Shown here piece after piece: positions 22,206 through 31,563 of a DNA stretch of 64,000 nucleotides. How positions within the stretch are numbered: the stretch's first letter is position 1; the number at the start of each line of letters is the position of its first letter. The notes below the pieces were generated by a model that was given only the letters and a program-made list of their open reading frames with translations, did not search any database and had not been told where the DNA came from. Where the stretch lies: positions 5,035,228-5,099,227 of the forward strand of contig NC_017586.1 in assembly GCF_000240165.1 (NCBI RefSeq). The letters are read 5' to 3'. Position numbers and translations under genes: made by a program. Origin of the DNA: Streptantibioticus cattleyicolor NRRL 8057 = DSM 46488 (GTDB lineage Bacteria; Actinomycetota; Actinomycetes; Streptomycetales; Streptomycetaceae).

Positions 22206-23345
22206 GTGAGTGCTGAAGACGCAGGCGTGAGTGCCGAAGAGCGAGCCGACGGACCCGGCGCGGCCGAGGTCCGCCGCCACCCCAACCCGCTGACCGCCGA
22301 CTCGGCGTTCATCCGCGCCTGCCGCCGCGAGCCGGTCCCGCACACCCCGGTGTGGTTCATGCGGCAGGCCGGGCGCTCGCTGCCGGAGTACCACAAGGTG
22401 CGCGAGGGCGTCCCGATGCTGGACTCCTGCATGCGTCCCGACCTGGTCACCGAGATCACGCTGCAGCCGGTCCGCCGCCACAAGGTGGACGCCGCCATCT
22501 ACTACAGCGACATCGTGGTCCCGCTGAAGGCCATCGGGCTCGACCTGGACATCAAGCCCGGCGTCGGCCCGGTCTTCGCCGAGCCCGTCCGCAGCCGTGC
22601 CGACCTCGACCGGCTCCGCCCGCTCGAACCCGGTGACGTCCACTACGTCACCGAGGCGATCGGCATGCTCACCGCGGAACTCGGTGCCACCCCGCTGATC
22701 GGTTTCGCCGGCGCACCGTTCACGCTCGCCAGTTATCTGGTCGAAGGCGGTCCGTCCCGCAATCACGAACGCACCAAAGCGCTCATGTACGGCGACCCGC
22801 AGCTCTGGGCCGACCTCCTCGACCGGCTCGCCGGGATCACCGCGGCCTTCCTGAAGGTGCAGATCGAGGCGGGCGCCTCGGCGGTGCAGCTCTTCGACTC
22901 CTGGGCCGGCGCCCTCGCCCCGGACGACTACCGGCGCTCCGTCCTGCCCGCCTCGGCCAAGGTCTTCGACGCGGTGGCCGGATACGGCGTGCCGCGCATC
23001 CACTTCGGTGTCGGCACCGGCGAACTGCTGGGCCTGATGGGCCGGGCCGGCGCCGACGTGGTGGGCGTCGACTGGCGCGTCCCGCTGGACGAGGCGGCCG
23101 GCCGGGTCGGCCCGCACAAGGCGCTCCAGGGCAACCTCGACCCCGCCGTGCTCTTCGCCCCGACGCCGGCGGTGGAGACCAAGGCCCGCGAGGTGCTGCA
23201 CGCCGCGCAGAGCGCCCCCGGCCACATCTTCAACCTCGGCCACGGGGTGATCCCGGACACCGACCCGGACGCGCTCACCCGGCTCGTCGACTTCGTCCAC
23301 ACCGTCACCGAGGACACGAGCGGCGCACGGCCCGGGGCACGCTGA
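22206..23345 (+). CDS. hemE: Uroporphyrinogen decarboxylase
   Basis: 379 residues. The enzyme decarboxylates the four acetate side chains of uroporphyrinogen III to give coproporphyrinogen III. Signatures: [18 protein letters not shown] near residue 55, [18 protein letters not shown] and the second family motif around [17 protein letters not shown]. Two in-frame GTG codons (22206 and 22227) sit in near-identical contexts (GTGAGTGC-x-GAAGA), so the true start is ambiguous; both precede the conserved part. It leads a hemE-hemY-hemQ operon and diverges from DUF3000. Confidence 0.93.
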
Positions 23346-23379
23346 AGCCGGTGCCGGCGCGGGTGGCACAGTGGACGTC

Positions 23380-24948
23380 ATGAGCGCAGCGAGGTCGCAA
23401 CGTCCTGAGGAAACCGCCACCCCGGAAGCGGCCGACGGCCCGGAGGCCCCCGGCGGCGCGGCCGGTGCCGCCACGCTCGGGCACGTCGTGGTCGTCGGCG
23501 GCGGCATCTCCGGGCTCGCCGCCGCCCACCGGCTGGTGACCGCCGGTGCCCGGGTCACCGTGCTGGAGGCCGCCGACCGGCTCGGCGGCAAACTCCACGC
23601 CGACGAGATCGCCGGGGTCCCCGTCGACCTGGGCGCCGAGTCCATGCTGGCCCGGCGCCCGGAGGCGGTCGCGCTCGCCCGGCGGGTCGGCCTCGGCCCC
23701 GACCTCCAGCCGCCGGCCACCGCCCAGGCCGCGCTGTGGACCCGGGGCCGGCTGCGCCCGATGCCGCGCGGCCACGTCATGGGCGTCCCCGGCGATCTCC
23801 AGCCGCTCTCCGCCTCCGGGGTGCTCTCCCCGGCCGGCCTCGCCCGCATCCCCCTCGACCACGTACTCCCGCGCACCGAGGTCGGCGAGGACGTCGCCAT
23901 CGGCGAGTACGTGGCCGCCCGCCTCGGCCGCGAAGTGGTCGACCGGCTCGTCGAACCCCTCCTCGGCGGCGTCTACGCGGGCAACTCCTACCGCCTCTCC
24001 ATGCGGGCCGCCGTGCCCCAGCTGTACGCCGCCGCCCGCGCCGAACGCTCGCTGATCGAGGGCGTACGGGCCGTCCAGGCCAAGGCGGCCTCCTCCACCG
24101 CGCAGGAGTCCTCCGGCCGCGCCGTCACCGGGGACGACCGGGCGGGCGCCGCGGCCGGACCGGTCTTCATGGGCATCGCCGGCGGCGTGGGACGGCTGCC
24201 GCTCGCGGTCGCCGACGCCTGCCGCGCCGCGGGCGCCGACATCCGCACCGGCACCCGGGTGCACACCCTGCGGCGGACGGCCGACGGCTGGCGGCTGGCC
24301 GCAGACGGCCCCGGCGGACGGTACGCCCTCCAGGCCGACGCCGTGGTGCTCGCCGTCCCCGGCCCCGCCGCGGCCCGGCTGCTCGCCGCCGAGTCGCCCG
24401 GGGCGGCGGCCGAACTGAGCACCGTGGAGTGCGCCGGCATGGCGCTGATCACCATGGCCTTCCGCCGCCGCGACCTGCTGAACGCCCCCGCCGGCAGCGG
24501 CTTCCTGGTGCCCCCGGTCGACGGCCGCACCATCAAGGCGGCCACCTTCGCCACCCGCAAGTGGGGCTGGATCGACCAGGCCGGCCCGGACACCTTCGTG
24601 CTGCGCACCTCCATCGGACGCCACGGCGAGGAGGCCGACCTGGCCTGGGACGACACCGACCTGGTGCGGCTGTCCCGGGAGGACCTGGCACAGGCCGCCG
24701 GGGTCACCGCGGTGCCGGTCGCCGCCCGGGTGACCCGGTGGACCGAGGGCCTGCCGCAGTATCCGGTCGGCCACCTGGAGCGCACCGCGCGCGTCCGCGA
24801 ACACGTCGCCAAGCTGCCCGGCCTCGCGGTCTGCGGCGCCGCCTACGACGGCGTGGGCATCCCGGCCTGCGTCGCCACCGCCGACCGCGCCGCCGACGAG
24901 GTACTGGCCACCCTGCGCACGGCCGTCCGGAACGACGCGGGAGAATAG
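23380..24948 (+). CDS. hemY: Coproporphyrinogen III oxidase / protoporphyrinogen oxidase (HemY/CgoX)
   Basis: 522-residue FAD-dependent oxidase. After a ~33-residue variable head comes the dinucleotide-binding [17 protein letters not shown] and [20 protein letters not shown]. Near the end are [18 protein letters not shown] motifs. In actinobacteria HemY with HemQ is known to form the coproporphyrin-dependent route, oxidising coproporphyrinogen III to coproporphyrin III, so cgoX is the functionally better name. ATG 23380 was chosen over GTG 23371; neither has a strong ribosome-binding site. It lies 34 bases after hemE and 4 before hemQ. Confidence 0.92.
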
Positions 24949-24952
24949 CCCC

Positions 24953-25675
24953 ATGACCGACAACGCCGCCCCCGCCAAGGCCCCCAACGCGGGCAAGAAG
25001 GCCCGTGACCTCAACGAGGTCATCCGCTACACCCTGTGGTCCGTCTTCAAGCTGCGCGACGTGCTCCCCGAGGACCGCGCCGGCTACGCGGAGGAGGTCG
25101 AGGAGCTCTTCGAACAGCTCGACGCCAAGGACGTCACCATCCGCGGCACGTACGACCTGTCCGGGCTGCGCGCCGACGCCGACGTGATGATCTGGTGGCA
25201 CGCCGAGACCTCCGACGTGCTCCAGGACGCCTACAACCGCTTCCGCCGCACCAAGCTGGGCCGCTCGCTGGAGCCGGTCTGGTCCAACATGGCGCTGCAC
25301 CGCCCGGCCGAGTTCAACAAGTCGCACATCCCGGCCTTCCTGGCCGACGAGACGCCGCGCGAGTACGTGAGCGTCTACCCGTTCGTGCGCTCCTACGACT
25401 GGTACCTGCTGCCCGACGAGGACCGCCGCCGGATGCTCGCCGACCACGGCAAGATGGCCCGCGGCTACCCGGACGTACGCGCCAACACCGTCGCCTCCTT
25501 CGCCCTCGGTGACTACGAGTGGGTCCTCGCGTTCGAGGCCGACGAGCTGCACCGCATCGTGGACCTCATGCGCCACCTGCGCGGCTCCGAGGCGCGGATG
25601 CACGTCCGTGAGGAGATCCCGTTCTTCACCGGCCGCCGCAAGGCCGTGGCCGACCTGGTGGCCGGCCTCGCCTGA
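24953..25675 (+). CDS. hemQ: Coprohaem decarboxylase (HemQ/ChdC, chlorite dismutase-like)
   Basis: 240 residues of the chlorite-dismutase-like fold. It makes the last step of the coproporphyrin route, oxidative decarboxylation of coprohaem to haem b. Recognisable segments are [40 protein letters not shown] and [23 protein letters not shown], the last containing the haem-ligating histidine region, followed by [18 protein letters not shown]. It starts 4 bases after hemY, so translation is probably coupled. A hairpin (25686-25714) ends the operon. Confidence 0.93.
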
Positions 25676-25719: not shown

Positions 25720-26508
25720 TCAGCGCGTGCCGTACCGCCGCCGGACGGGGGCGAGCGCGGCGCGCAGCGCCGGATCGGGCAGGGCGTCGGCGCCGCCGAC
25801 CGCGAGCGCCAGCAGCGGACGGTGCGCGCCCGCCGGTATCGCGCGCAGCGCGGCCACCCCGGCCGGGGCCGCCCACCGGGTCCAGGCGCGCACCTCGGCG
25901 CGGGCGATCAGCAGACAGCCCACCGTCAGCAGCAGCGGCAGCGCGAACCACCACAGCTGCCACGGCCCCTCGCCGCCCGGCACACCCAGCCCGGCGGTGA
26001 CCACGAGCAGCGCCAGGACGAGCCCGGCGGCGCCGGCGGTCTGCCGTATCCCCGCGCGCAGCGCGTCCCGGGTGGCGGCGGGCACCGCGAGGCCGGCCGC
26101 CGCCAGCCGGTCGCCGAGCGCGCGGACCGCGTCGGCCGCCGCGTGCGAGGCGCGTATCGCCGCGACCGGCGACTGCCCCCGCGGCCCGATCGACGCGATC
26201 AGCGACCGCTCCACCTCGTCCCGGCCGACCGGGTCGACGACGGTGGCCCACCCGGTGTGGGCGAGCAGCAGCCGCCGCTGACCGGACATCGACACCAGCG
26301 TGACATCGGTGACCCGGCCGGGACCGCCGGCCAGGAACGCCGTTTCGTACGGCCCCAGTTCACCCGCGGGCGGGCCGGACGGGCCCGGGGCGCCGGGGTG
26401 TTCGCCCTCCGGGAGGCGGCCGTCGGCGGCCGTCATCGCCGCACGGCACAACCGCGCGCAGGAGACGAACGCCGCCGCCCAGGCGACGAGTAGCAGCGAA
26501 ACCCACAT
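25720..26508 (-). CDS. TIGR04222-type membrane protein without a Gly/Cys tail
   Basis: 262 residues. An N-terminal membrane helix with two cysteines (WVSLLLVAWAAAFVSCARLC) is followed by a soluble part containing LGPYETAFLAGGPGRVTDV, the family's L-x-x-x-E-x-A-F/Y-L-x-GGP-x-R motif, and a pair of membrane helices near residues 165-205. As I recall, many relatives end in a low-complexity glycine/cysteine-rich tail; this one ends AALAPVRRRYGTR without it. It lies 42 bases downstream of the SCO6045-like gene and third after the DUF692 gene, so it belongs to that operon. Role unknown; a membrane partner or substrate of the enzyme is possible. Confidence 0.75.
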   Translation of the reverse strand: MWVSLLLVAWAAAFVSCARLCRAAMTAADGRLPEGEHPGAPGPSGPPAGELGPYETAFLAGGPGRVTDVTLVSMSGQRRLLLAHTGWATVVDPVGRDEVERSLIASIGPRGQSPVAAIRASHAAADAVRALGDRLAAAGLAVPAATRDALRAGIRQTAGAAGLVLALLVVTAGLGVPGGEGPWQLWWFALPLLLTVGCLLIARAEVRAWTRWAAPAGVAALRAIPAGAHRPLLALAVGGADALPDPALRAALAPVRRRYGTR

Positions 26509-26550
26509 GCCGGTGTTCTACTCGACGCCACTGACAACGACGGGTCCGTC

Positions 26551-27180
26551 TCACACCGTGGACGCCCCGGGACGGAGCGCGGCGGGTGGCCGCAGCACCG
26601 TCCCGGGGCGCCGGACACCCAGCGCCGTACGGTGTTTCAGCCGCACCAGCGCGCGCCGCAGCCGTCCGGTCGGCAGCGGTTCCGGACCGGCCCGCTCGGC
26701 CCACCACTCGGCCAGCCGGCGGCGTACCGCACGCTCCGGCCCGCCCGCGTCGCGCGGCAGCGACAACAGGTGCTCGGCGAAGGCCAGCGCGTCCCGCCGG
26801 TAGCCGCCGCCGCACAGCGGGTTGGCCATCGCGTACGCGGTGAACGCCGGCCGGTAGCCCGCCCCGAGGATCACCGGCAGCTCGGGGGCCACCCGGGCCA
26901 CCACCGCGGCCCGCTTGGCGGCGAGCGCGCGGCCGGTGGCCCGGATCCGTACCGGGTCGAACCCGGCCGGCACCGGCCCCCCTTCCACCAGCGCCGACAG
27001 CAACGCGGCCTGCCCGCGCGCCAGGCGCTCACGGGCCGCGTCGGTGGCCGGCGCCACCGTGGAACGCACCCGGACCGGCCGCCCGGCCCCGGCCGTCACC
27101 GCCATCGTCGTGTCGTCCGGCGCCGGACCGGCATCGTCGCGTAGCAGTCCCGCGCAGGCCGCGGTCGTCCGGTCAGACAT
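26551..27180 (-). CDS. SCO6045-like protein, possible DUF692-enzyme partner
   Basis: 209 residues. The conserved core is [20 protein letters not shown], followed by [40 protein letters not shown] and then [16 protein letters not shown]. This pattern is what I remember for the Streptomyces SCO6045 family and recalls the N-terminal DUF2063-type partner domain of DUF692 enzymes (repeating helix, R..AL...R, P.L..LLG..F..). Its ATG overlaps the end of the DUF692 gene by 8 bases, showing tight coupling. The first ~45 residues are variable. Partner function is inferred from resemblance and gene order. Confidence 0.65.
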
Positions 27181-28021
27181 GGCGGATCCCCTCCTCGCGC
27201 GCCCGGGCGCACGCCGTGCGGATGGCCGCCAGCTCCGCGGCGAGCACGTCGGGCGGCGGGAAGTCGTCGTCGCGCTCCAGCAGCACCCCGGGCGGGGCGG
27301 CGTGGGCGTGGACCGCGGCCAGGAGCGCGAGCACCGGCTCGCCCACCGGGTGGGCGTGGGTGTCGTGCCACATCCCGTCGCGTTCGGTGCCGCCCGCCAC
27401 GTGCACGTAGGCGATCGCCTCCGGCGGCAGCGCGGCCAGGGTGCGCAGCGGGTCGGTGCCGTGGTTGACGTGGTTGGCGTGCAGGTTGGCCACGTCGACC
27501 AGGAGGCCGACCCCGGTGCGTTCGACCAGCTCGGCCAGGAACTCGCCCTCGGTGAACTCCTCGTCGGGCCAGCGCAGCAGCGCCGCCACGTTCTCCAGGG
27601 CCAGCGGGACGGGCAGGCACTGCTGGGCGATGCGGACGTTCTCGCAGAGCACGTCGAGCGCGTCCCGGGTGTACGGCACCGGCAGCAGGTGGCCCGCCTC
27701 CAGGGCCGGGGTGCCGGTCAGCGCGCCCCCGCCGCGGACGAAGGCGATGTGCTCGGTGACCAGCGGGGCGCCCAACGCCTCGGCGCGCTCGGCGAGATCG
27801 GCCAGCCGCCACGGGTCCGGGCGGTCGGCGCCGCCCAGCCCGAGCGAGACGCCGTGCGGCACCACCGGGGTGCCGCGGGCCAGCAGACGTTCCAGGGATT
27901 CCGGCAGACGACCCGGGCAGATGTTCTCCGCCACCACTTCCACCCAGTCGACGCCGGGCAGCTGCTCGACCGGCGCGGCGATCTCCGGCCGCCAGCCGAC
28001 GCCCACACCCAGCCGCTGCAT
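27173..28021 (-). CDS. DUF692/MNIO-family multinuclear iron oxidative enzyme
   Basis: 282 residues of the DUF692 TIM-barrel family (MbnB/HvfB/BufB relatives), which bind two or three irons and oxidatively modify cysteine-type residues of peptides. The metal-ligand pattern looks complete: H56 ([11 protein letters not shown]), H91 (TEHIAF), E143-N144 (ALENVA), D176/N179/H181 ([13 protein letters not shown]), H207 (AYVHVAG), and D220/H222 (HDTHAHP). ATG 28021 follows a GGGGGA box. It is first in a minus-strand unit with a SCO6045-like partner and a TIGR04222-type membrane protein. I see no Cys-rich precursor peptide nearby. The target is unknown. Confidence 0.85.
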
Positions 28022-28210
28022 ACGGTCCCCCTTCCCGGATGCGGAATGCGGTGGGGGCCGGACCGGGCGCCCCCGTGGCGCCCGGAGCCGGACCCTGAAG
28101 GTGACCATCGCCCGAGCGGGCACCGGTGAACCCCCGAACGCCCGGGTTCAGAGCTGGATTTGAGGTTCAGCACTGGCGGTCGTGGCCGGGCCGGACCACA
28201 CTGACGCGCC

Positions 28211-28822
28211 ATGGGGGCGGAAACGCACGGCGGTCGGGACGCACGGCGGCACGTCACGGAGACGGTGGACGTGCTCGTCCTGTGCGGGGCGGTGGGGGTG
28301 GGCAAGAGCACCACGGCGCACGAGGTGTCACTGCGCCTCGCCGACGACGGGCTGGCCCACGCCGTGGTCGACTGCGGTGAGCTGGAACGGCTCCACCCCT
28401 GGCCGGTCGAGGGGCTCCCGGAGTCCGAGGCCGCCCGGCGCAACCTCGCCGCGGTATGGGCCAACTACGCCGGACTCGGCCACCACCGGCTGATGCTCTG
28501 CGGGGTCTTCACCGACCTCCACCACGAACTCCCCTGGATCGCCGAGGCGGTCCCCGACGCCGCCTTCACCGTCATCCGGCTCACCGCCGACCCCGCCGTC
28601 CTCGCCGACCGCGTCCGCCCCCGGCCCGGCTCCGCCACCCCCGTCCCCGACCCCCTCGACCGCGCCGAACGCCAACTGCGCGAAATAGCCGCCGCCGACC
28701 CGCCCGGCACCCTCGTCGTCGACACCACCGGCCGCGGCGTCGCCGAAGTCGCCGAACAAGTCATGGCCCTCTGGCCGGCCGTCTCCCACCCGAGGGAGAC
28801 GGGCCGGAACGGGCCGGGCTGA
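28211..28822 (+). CDS. P-loop nucleotide-binding protein (kinase-like)
   Basis: 203 residues with Walker A GAVGVGKSTTAHEVS around residues 27-41 and the layout of small AAA_18/adenylylate-type kinases: VVDCGELERL, then HHRLMLCGVF, FTVIRLTADPAVLADRVRPR (adenine-lid-like arginines) and a C-terminal TLVVDTTGRGVAEVAEQVM. Predicted cytoplasmic. It diverges from the DUF692 gene across 189 bases in which I saw no clear promoter boxes. ATG 28211 has only a weak ribosome-binding site. Substrate unknown. Confidence 0.7.
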   Translation: MGAETHGGRDARRHVTETVDVLVLCGAVGVGKSTTAHEVSLRLADDGLAHAVVDCGELERLHPWPVEGLPESEAARRNLAAVWANYAGLGHHRLMLCGVFTDLHHELPWIAEAVPDAAFTVIRLTADPAVLADRVRPRPGSATPVPDPLDRAERQLREIAAADPPGTLVVDTTGRGVAEVAEQVMALWPAVSHPRETGRNGPG

Positions 28823-28993: not shown

Positions 28994-29617
28994 GTGACGA
29001 CAGCAGGCGGTGCAGCCGTAGTGTCCGAGGTAGCAGAAGTGCAATCGGCCTGGGGGCGAATCGTGCACTGGCTCCAGGTGAACGCGCCGGTCAGTGCGGA
29101 GGCGCTGTGCGGGCCGGCCACGGATGAGGACATCGCGGGCCTGAGCGAAGCGCTGGGGTTCGAGGTGCCTGACGTTCTTGAGGCGCTGCTGAGGATGAAC
29201 AACGGCAGCTCCGCGAAGGACACCACACGGCTCCTCCCCAACGGCCAGGTAGGGCCTGTGCGTCACCTGGATTCGGTGATCTTCCCCTACGGAAAGATCC
29301 TTCTGGGATGCGCGGAGATCGGCGAGCAGTATGCCAAGTGGCGGGGTGCCGAAGAAGAACACGACCTGGACGGCTACTGGAAGATTCCCTGGATCCCTGT
29401 GATCCAGGACTTCGAGGGTCAGTACTACGGGTACGCAGTGGACTCGGGGGTACCAGGCTTACCTGTCGTCGAGTACGGCGAGGGTTCTGTTCCGCGCGAG
29501 GCGGCCCCGTCGCTGGCCGTGTTGCTGGGGTCGTTCGCAGATGCGCTGGAAAGAGGCAGTTGGGGTGAGTGGCCTGAGTGGGTGGACCAGGGGTCATTGA
29601 GGTGGGGTGAGGAGTGA
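28994..29617 (+). CDS. SMI1/KNR4 family protein
   Basis: 207 residues with the SMI1/KNR4 (SUKH) pattern: ATDEDIAGLSEALGFEVPDV near residue 37, LLRMNNGSS, RLLPNGQVGPVRHLDSV, and WIPVIQDFEGQYYGYAVDSG with the typical W-x-P-I/V and D-x2-G features, ending in a helix (SLAVLLGSFADALERG). The family includes immunity proteins of polymorphic toxins, but no toxin gene is adjacent. Codon use is visibly less GC-biased than in neighbours and includes a TTA leucine codon (29459-29461), a rare codon read by bldA tRNA. These are signs of later acquisition. The start may be GTG 28994 or 29021. Confidence 0.75.
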   Translation: MTTAGGAAVVSEVAEVQSAWGRIVHWLQVNAPVSAEALCGPATDEDIAGLSEALGFEVPDVLEALLRMNNGSSAKDTTRLLPNGQVGPVRHLDSVIFPYGKILLGCAEIGEQYAKWRGAEEEHDLDGYWKIPWIPVIQDFEGQYYGYAVDSGVPGLPVVEYGEGSVPREAAPSLAVLLGSFADALERGSWGEWPEWVDQGSLRWGEE

Positions 29618-29917: not shown

Positions 29918-30643
29918 TCAGGCCTCGGGGCGCAGGGACGGGTGGTCGGCGACGATCGTGCAGGAGTTGGGGGCGATCTCGGTGTAGCCGGCGTCGCGGA
30001 CGAGGGGGAGGGGGGAGGTGGTGAGGCGGGCCCAGTGGGCGGGGTCGGGGGTGCGGACGGCGAGGGGGAAGCCGGCGTCCCGCCAGGCGGTGCGGGCCGC
30101 GGGGGACAGTGCCCACCAGGCGAGTTGGGCGCCGTGGCCGGCCTGGGCCATCGCCTTGCCGGCGGACATCTCCAGCTCGGGGTTGCACCACAGGACGGGT
30201 GCGGCGGGGTCGGCCGGGGCGGGCGGGGCCGGGTCGTCCAGGTGTGTACCGGAGACCTGGAGCCGGGCCAGGTCCTTGGGCCAGCCGTCCAGCGGCACCG
30301 GGGGGAAGACCCTGACCTGCGCGGCGGCGCCCTCGACGGTGATGCCGGGGAGCGCCGCGGCCCGGCGCCACTCCGCGCCCCGGGCCCGCCGCACCACCTT
30401 GCGGATCCGTCCGTCCTCCCAGCCGCGCCGGGCCGCCGCCCACTCGCCCTCGCCGGACGCGCGCGGATCGGCGAGGAACACCAGCACCGCGCGGGCCGCC
30501 GTCTCCAACGCGTCGGTACGGGCCGGCGGGGCGTCGCGTTCGATCCGGACGACGAGCGGCAGGACGAACTGCGGCGCCGCGTCGCGGTCGGCGGCCCCCG
30601 GACCGGTGGGCGCCGTCACACTGTCGGGGTCGGTGCTGGTCAC
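29918..30643 (-). CDS. PTH2-type peptidyl-tRNA hydrolase with long N-terminal extension
   Basis: 241 residues. The last ~100 residues resemble the PTH2 family, which cleaves peptidyl-tRNA: LEMSAGKAMAQAGHGAQLAW (the K-x-x-AQ-x-x-H core) and LVRDAGYTEIAPNSCTIVAD. PTH2 proteins are normally about 115-130 residues; here a ~130-residue N-terminal region, with EWRRAAALPGITVEGAAAQV, precedes it and may be a diverged duplicate or a separate domain. The GTG at 30643 is the first reasonable start, without a strong ribosome-binding site. It diverges from the ABC exporter pair (80-base gap). Confidence 0.75.
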   Translation of the reverse strand: MTSTDPDSVTAPTGPGAADRDAAPQFVLPLVVRIERDAPPARTDALETAARAVLVFLADPRASGEGEWAAARRGWEDGRIRKVVRRARGAEWRRAAALPGITVEGAAAQVRVFPPVPLDGWPKDLARLQVSGTHLDDPAPPAPADPAAPVLWCNPELEMSAGKAMAQAGHGAQLAWWALSPAARTAWRDAGFPLAVRTPDPAHWARLTTSPLPLVRDAGYTEIAPNSCTIVADHPSLRPEA

Positions 30644-30723
30644 CGGGCCAGCATGCCATGGCGCGGCGGGGGGAACTTTCCCCGGCCCCTGGGCGTTGGG
30701 CCGGGTCGAAGGGGGGAACGACG

Positions 30724-31563
30724 ATGCGGCTGAGCGGGGTCGGACGGCGGTACGGATACGGGCCACGAGGCCGCTGGGTGCTGCGCGACGTCGACCTGGA
30801 GCTGGCGGACGGCGGGGCGCTGGTCCGCGTCGAGGGCGGCAACGGCAGCGGCAAGTCGACGCTGCTGCGGCTGATCGCCGGCGTCGACGTGCCCACCGCC
30901 GGCACGGTCACCGGCCGCCCGGCCACCGCCTACGTACCCGAACGCTTCCCGGCCGAGCTGCCGTTCACCGCCAGCGGCTATCTGACCCGGATCGGGCGGA
31001 TCCACGGGCTCTCCGGGCGCGAGGCGTCCCGCCGGGCCCGGCACTGGCTGGCGCGCTTCGACGTCGCCGGCCACGCCGACACCCCGCTCGACCGGCTCTC
31101 CAAGGGCACCTGCCAGAAGGTCGCGGTCGCCCAGGCGCTCCTCGCCGAACCGGCCCTGCTGGTGCTGGACGAGGCGTGGACGGGGCTGGACGCGTCCGCC
31201 CGCCGGCTGCTCGACGAGACCGTGCTGGAACGGGTGGCGGCCGGCGGCACCGCGGTCTTCGTCGACCACTCCCCGCGCCGGGCGGCCACCGAGGCCACCG
31301 CCGTCTACCAGGTGGCCGGCGGCCGGGTCACCGCGCTGCCGGCCCCGGACGGCGGCCCCGTCGCGACCGTCGTCCGCATCGTGGCCGAGGGCGACGGCGA
31401 ACCCCCGGCCGACCTGGCGCCGCATGTGCGCGGCGGGGCGCGGGAGATCCGCCTCACCGTCCCCGAGGCCGACTGCGACCAGGCGCTGCGCACCCTGCTG
31501 TCGGCCGACCCGCCCTGGCACGTACGGTCCGTCACGCCGGTGGCGCCGGGGGATGACCGATGA
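30724..31563 (+). CDS. ABC-2-type exporter ATP-binding protein
   Basis: 279-residue ABC ATPase. Walker A is GGNGSGKSTLL (about residues 39-49), Walker B LLVLDEAWTGLD. The signature reads LSKGTCQKVAVAQALL, the KGT variant common in ABC-2 drug/antibiotic exporters in place of LSGGQ. About 90 C-terminal residues extend past the ATPase core. ATG 30724 follows an AAGGGGGG box. Its stop overlaps the ATG of the following membrane gene (ATGA), so the two form one transporter. Substrate unknown. Confidence 0.85.
   Translation: MRLSGVGRRYGYGPRGRWVLRDVDLELADGGALVRVEGGNGSGKSTLLRLIAGVDVPTAGTVTGRPATAYVPERFPAELPFTASGYLTRIGRIHGLSGREASRRARHWLARFDVAGHADTPLDRLSKGTCQKVAVAQALLAEPALLVLDEAWTGLDASARRLLDETVLERVAAGGTAVFVDHSPRRAATEATAVYQVAGGRVTALPAPDGGPVATVVRIVAEGDGEPPADLAPHVRGGAREIRLTVPEADCDQALRTLLSADPPWHVRSVTPVAPGDDR

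Follow-up and report, generated by a model that had tools for sequence, protein, structure and literature searches.

Introduction

MNIO (DUF692) enzymes perform unusual chemistry, and their targets have mostly been guessed from the adjoining genes. The closest described systems are the TIGR04222-MNIO-PME-type-2 clusters, which occur in Actinomycetota next to a PTH2 gene termed adjamnio-II (Antoine et al. 2025, PMC12452194). In the available part of that paper a subset of TIGR04222 proteins is proposed as MNIO substrates, over a quarter of TIGR04222 proteins are stated to be without C-terminal Cys, and many PME-type 2 partners are described as too short for an RRE domain. Other systems for comparison are TglH-TglI of Pseudomonas syringae (8hi7/8hci), MbnB-MbnC of methanobactin (7dz9) and the bufferin clusters with BufB and DUF2282 precursors.

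We have analysed a locus of this family in Streptantibioticus cattleyicolor NRRL 8057 = DSM 46488. The window, i.e. the whole stretch of DNA that was analysed, comprises 64,000 nucleotides (contig NC_017586.1, positions 5,035,228 to 5,099,227). The genome has 8.1 Mb in two contigs and is the sole member of its genus in the set searched. In what follows, TIGa denotes a TIGR04222 protein that ends in a Ser/Gly/Cys tail and mostly has 8–11 Cys in all, and TIGb is a tailless TIGR04222 membrane protein.

The window shares the MNIO, the short DUF2063-like partner, the TIGR04222 protein and the PTH2-like protein with the clusters of PMC12452194, and differs from them, as far as the available part describes them, in that its TIGR04222 copy has no tail. 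The locus is of a kind already known from that part of the paper, a TIGR04222-associated MNIO with a PME-type-2 partner. Since TIGR04222 targets have been proposed there, the target idea itself is not new. The same part draws no distinction between TIGa and TIGb and makes no reference to MNIO-partner fusions; relative to it, the new elements are the TIGa/TIGb split, the enzyme-partner fusions, repeated loss of the tail and charge evidence for a cytosolic tail.

Gene content of the locus

Three genes on the reverse strand encode the MNIO enzyme (DUF692 / MbnB_TglH_ChrH, 282 aa, 27173..28021), its partner protein (209 aa, 26551..27180) and TIGb (262 aa, three membrane helices, 25720..26508). The coordinates of the open reading frames bear out the spacing given in the original prediction: MNIO and partner genes overlap by 8 bp (27173–27180) and a gap of 42 bp (26509–26550) separates the partner gene from the TIGR04222 gene. 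The three genes form one compact operon. Downstream and outside the operon lies a convergent hemQ-hemY-hemE block (22227..25675, forward strand), recognised by HemQ profiles and by its neighbourhoods. The HemQ of the window matches NF042928 with 367 bits and also PF06778; hemE and hemY are presumed identities, taken from sequence and position. Upstream there is a P-loop kinase-like gene divergent from MNIO (28211..28822, forward strand, weak AAA_18/AAA_33 matches) and a gene for a PTH2-like protein (29918..30766, reverse strand; PF01981, 29.7 bits, cut-off 23).

The hem block is conserved next to TIGb whether or not MNIO is present, and the kinase-like gene is common only to a few similar neighbourhoods (L114, L120, L126, L127 and L129). 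As the gene set is seen again in scores of genomes, the arrangement of the window is not due to chance. Scanning the locus for promoters and terminators found none. Between MNIO and the divergent kinase-like gene there is an inverted repeat, GAACCC...GGGTTC (window 28125–28150), which could be an operator. A further gene at 28994–29617, overlooked by a codon model trained on the neighbouring genes, belongs to the SMI1/KNR4 (SUKH) family, which includes immunity proteins.

The MNIO enzyme and its partner protein

The MNIO of the window belongs to the superfamily of PF05114 (276.5 bits, cut-off 25) and is the only PF05114 protein found in the genome by profile search of the contigs. Its closest models are BufB and HvfB, with 193.1 and 152 bits, i.e. 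below the curated cut-offs of 310 and 360; the equivalog cut-off of BufB (NF050167) is the former of these. The original prediction had stated that the enzyme keeps the ligand pattern of its family. Alignment to TglH, whose iron ligands H71, H107, E151, D184, N187, H216, D229, H231 and E258 were taken from PMC10880893, places all nine in the window enzyme as H56, H91, E143, D176, N179, H207, D220, H222 and E249. The nine ligands are invariant across 107 related MNIO loci. The sequence match to TglH covers about half of the window enzyme, and the match to the methanobactin enzyme, which is of the same enzyme family, reaches only 28.7 bits. No signal peptide is apparent by eye in either MNIO or partner.

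The partner has no worthwhile sequence match in Pfam, NCBIfam or PDB. It had originally been likened to DUF2063-type partner domains; this holds for the fold and not for the signature, since no Pfam family, DUF2063 (PF09836, PME-type 1) included, is matched at E up to 1. An AlphaFold model built from 50 relatives is helical (pLDDT 80), with a block of pLDDT 87–98 across residues 51–160. Foldseek alone was undecided, and its candidates were then re-aligned. The best structural matches are TglI (8hi7_A, Z 6.2 over 112 residues at 3.4 A; 8hci_A, Z 6.0), followed by MbnC (7dz9_C, Z 4.4), all remaining candidates being at 2.7 or below. The part of TglI that is matched is its N-terminal helical domain. 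No RRE domain is seen in the model, which has no strands and is of low confidence past residue 186; in this the partner differs from TglI, and the C-terminal RRE domain that is optional in PME-type 2 is not found.

A TglI/NGO1945-like helical domain that has no DUF2063 signature and adjoins an MNIO gene is what defines PME-type 2, and the partner has these features. Because its Z values are below 8, gene position and fusions carry much of the weight of this assignment. In 38 other loci (e.g. L090, L106, L108, L146, L151 and L193) MNIO and partner are one continuous open reading frame, and as such fusions are found in several genera the fusion probably arose more than once. With modest structural scores, the model suggests that the partner is of a known type of MNIO-enzyme partner, as TglI and MbnC are, and it agrees with the PME-type 2 partners in the available part of PMC12452194. 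The natural enzyme-partner fusions are easy to express.

Tailed proteins and MNIO across the family

Profiles for MNIO and TIGR04222 were both searched in 150 genomes of the family and about 135 stretches were fetched. The usual order is MNIO, partner, TIGa, TIGb, followed by convergent hemQ-hemY-hemE. The original prediction had asked whether Cys-rich tails covary with the DUF692 gene, and they do: among hemQ-linked loci that have a TIGR04222 gene, 56 of the 79 with MNIO and none of the 16 without it encode a tailed TIGR04222 protein. These counts come from related and not independent genomes, so that the Fisher p of 7e-8 for the association should not be taken as a real probability. Six tailed copies have no MNIO beside them, and every genome with such a copy has MNIO elsewhere. 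The rule that the tail occurs only in genomes with the enzyme is testable. The same prediction had also asked whether the TIGR04222 gene always accompanies the enzyme, which is not the case: 21 of the genomes searched have TIGR04222 without MNIO of this kind and eight have this MNIO and no TIGR04222 protein.

In four genomes of one genus a Ser/Gly/Cys tail is carried by an unrelated one-helix protein encoded directly after the partner gene; the same genomes also have a TIGR04222 protein bearing a short Cys end. In frame coordinates the one-helix carriers are at L083:7193-7670, L088:6643-7675, L091:6643-7636 and L192:5984-7826. This protein is likely an independent carrier of the tail, and its occurrence indicates that it is the tail that accompanies the enzyme, and not the TIGR04222 fold. 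The tails would be the substrates and the partner may present them to the enzyme.

An MNIO of this branch without a tailed protein nearby was found at 28 of the 107 loci, three more being too near a contig edge; a few of these tailless assignments may be artefacts. One example is L190 (G114), where the tail codons of TIGa are out of frame with the domain, the tail seemingly severed by a frameshift that is either real or an assembly error. The tailless MNIO are scattered over several branches. In an independent set of 80 loci from named Streptomyces, a local tail is missing from 38 of the 70 that are long enough to judge. With so many tailless loci keeping MNIO, the arrangement in the window is ordinary. 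Loci of this type show where the neighbour-gene guess fails, as many Streptomyces retain the enzyme but have no tailed neighbour.

Search for a substrate in this genome

The free space at 15–37 kb of the window contains no small Cys-rich open reading frame, in line with the original observation that no peptide substrate is visible; nothing like the TglA scaffold or a methanobactin peptide was seen either. A genome-wide scan for tails by their S/G/C DNA pattern gave 54 matches, with none convincing among the matches listed: those are P/Q-rich genes on the opposite strand or scattered codons. In a positive control the scan recovered the TIGa, and its sensitivity was 54 of 84 loci with known tails, about a third being missed. 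An HMMER profile of the tails fails because bias correction strips most of them. No DUF2282 bufferin precursor exceeds the cut-off in this genome (best 16.6 bits, cut-off 22.4), and this distinguishes the locus from bufferin clusters together with the unreached enzyme cut-offs and the partner that is not DUF2063 by Pfam.

Soluble TIGR04222 relatives were first met in tailless Streptomyces. They have a Gly-rich end with a single Cys (e.g. ...YYCGGGGGGGGSD) and occur in 8 of the 150 genomes (one as a remnant), always with tailless MNIO loci; in three the gene is disrupted. The loci L243–L249 and L252–L258 are unlinked and lie in G039, G047, G055, G059, G087, G111, G127 and G138; a stop or frameshift interrupts the gene in G127 and G138, and G094 has a remnant. 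These proteins are possible unlinked targets of MNIO. No such relative exists in the genome studied here, where the window protein is the only one over the TIGR04222 cut-off. Other neighbours considered as substrates, the DUF4142 protein (c9, 0–1 Cys) and the DUF1996 protein (8 Cys, three loci), are likewise absent here.

On balance it seems somewhat likely that the tailed substrate is gone here and that the enzyme pair has been retained and acts on an unlinked substrate which we do not recognise. The MNIO and its partner would be a working cytosolic enzyme pair. The usual target of this enzyme branch would be the Ser/Gly/Cys-rich C-terminal tail, normally on TIGa; the tailed TIGa may have been lost, or never acquired, in this lineage while the pair was kept. 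TIGb would be a paralogue independent of the enzyme and probably not its target, or not its only one. The enzyme most likely acts on a protein encoded elsewhere that cannot be told by a tail; a different substrate may exist in this genome. Of the two targets envisaged originally, the membrane protein and an unlinked protein, the latter is favoured, since TIGb lives without MNIO and tailless enzymes are conserved. Against this reading stand the failure of the S/G/C scan to give a convincing tail, the longish branch of the window MNIO and the constancy of one TIGb cysteine wherever MNIO is present, the last two of which are taken up below. A target, once found at such loci, would reveal either a novel class of substrate or an enzyme that acts in trans.

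Retention of the enzyme pair

It is also conceivable, but unlikely, that MNIO and partner are remnants, the enzyme being on its way out now that the tailed substrate is gone. The window MNIO has a branch of 0.55 in the MNIO tree, it departs from four positions that are otherwise 95% conserved, and its dN/dS against the more distant L120 is 0.41. Moreover, G012 and G034, which are of the same genus as L114, the nearest MNIO-bearing neighbour, have no MNIO and no partner, and their TIGb remains. Decay is argued against by open frames, by the intact ligands and by a dN/dS of 0.27 against the nearest relative, L114. In the other tailless loci pairwise dN/dS values of 0.10–0.26 are found, as compared to 0.16–0.27 in tailed pairs, and the nine ligands are kept in all 28 MNIO of tailless loci. 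One clade of 17 rows keeps the enzyme, tailless, through many species. Judged from these sequence comparisons, MNIO is under purifying selection also where no tail is near, and the enzyme would seem to be kept for a purpose other than an adjacent tail, as the preferred reading of an unlinked substrate supposes.

The membrane protein as a possible target

The membrane protein of the window is a TIGR04222 protein, as had been predicted (122 bits over the whole profile, cut-off 43). Both further features noted originally are present: the SCARLC Cys pair (SC17ARLC21) lies where the first membrane helix ends, and no Ser/Gly Cys-rich tail follows the domain, the protein terminating in ...ALRAALAPVRRRYGTR. 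A tree of 109 TIGR04222 proteins groups TIGb as a single clade of 53 rows (support 100/99), free of tailed members. The clade holds loci with and without MNIO together, and the window TIGb groups with three MNIO-less copies (94/88). TIGb has no tail and also occurs where there is no enzyme, so the true target is probably encoded at another place in the genome.

In the AlphaFold model of TIGb (pLDDT 89.9) the membrane helices span residues 2–29, 144–173 and 183–209, and a compact domain lies between helices 1 and 2. In all 62 tailless and all 42 tailed proteins, positive charges follow helix 1, precede helix 2 and follow helix 3, and the N-terminus and the loop between helices 2 and 3 are almost without them. 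By the positive-inside rule this charge pattern turns domain and tail towards the cytosol. The TIGR04222 domain and tail thus seem, on sequence grounds, to be on the cytosolic side, in the same compartment as MNIO and partner. Soluble TIGR04222 relatives without a membrane helix fit a cytosolic domain. In many TIGa the tail is preceded by a fourth, weak hydrophobic stretch, which aligns by eye with a short non-membrane helix of the TIGb model; were this stretch to span the membrane, the tail would lie outside. In the available part of PMC12452194 the tails are placed in the periplasm. Cytosolic tails, if true, would change any metal-buffering model.

That TIGb is itself the substrate, with MNIO and partner oxidising Cys17, and possibly Cys21 too, where helix 1 ends on the cytosolic side, is rather improbable. 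The operon layout speaks for it, and the charge pattern would put the helix end with Cys17 (codon 26458..26460, reverse strand) into the compartment of the enzyme. Cys17 is present in 59 of 59 copies from MNIO-carrying genomes and in 9 of 16 from genomes without MNIO; this retention of 56% is the lowest of the 42 best conserved columns, whose mean is 92%. However, columns 91 and 101 fall equally low, and Cys17 is kept in most MNIO-less lineages. Its losses are confined to two of them (genera g3 and g6) and are for this reason a hint, not evidence of modification. The narrower version, in which only the invariant Cys17 is oxidised and is free to vanish where MNIO has been lost, we regard as a little more doubtful still; if true, the target would be a folded membrane protein with several helices instead of a peptide or disordered tail. 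Cys21 (codon 26446..26448, reverse strand) shows no link with MNIO, occurring in 25 of 59 MNIO-linked and 7 of 11 unlinked copies, and the presence of the N-terminal Cys pair does not signal MNIO. The eight genomes that have the enzyme and no TIGR04222 protein also speak against TIGb as the substrate, and together with the tailless clade of mixed MNIO status they weaken the original suggestion of a membrane protein target. The MNIO targets known so far are flexible stretches of peptide and not a membrane helix. Searching the literature, we found no paper in which the tail or any TIGR04222 member is shown to be modified by MNIO.

Very unlikely, finally, is a role of TIGb as an unmodified adaptor that docks MNIO and partner at the membrane in place of the absent RRE domain: the partner is an enzyme-binding helical domain only, and TIGb shares its operon and, judged by charge, has its compact domain in the cytosol, but TIGb and MNIO are each found without the other, and a fold search on the TIGb model gave assorted helical bundles only, uninformative for identity.

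A metal-related role of the enzyme pair may be considered. At L105, L107 and L115 genes for DUF4142 and DUF1996 proteins lie directly after the MNIO-partner pair. The neighbours at L115 resemble what we take to be a GlxA-type copper oxidase and a cellulose-synthase-like protein, a hint of a link to copper.
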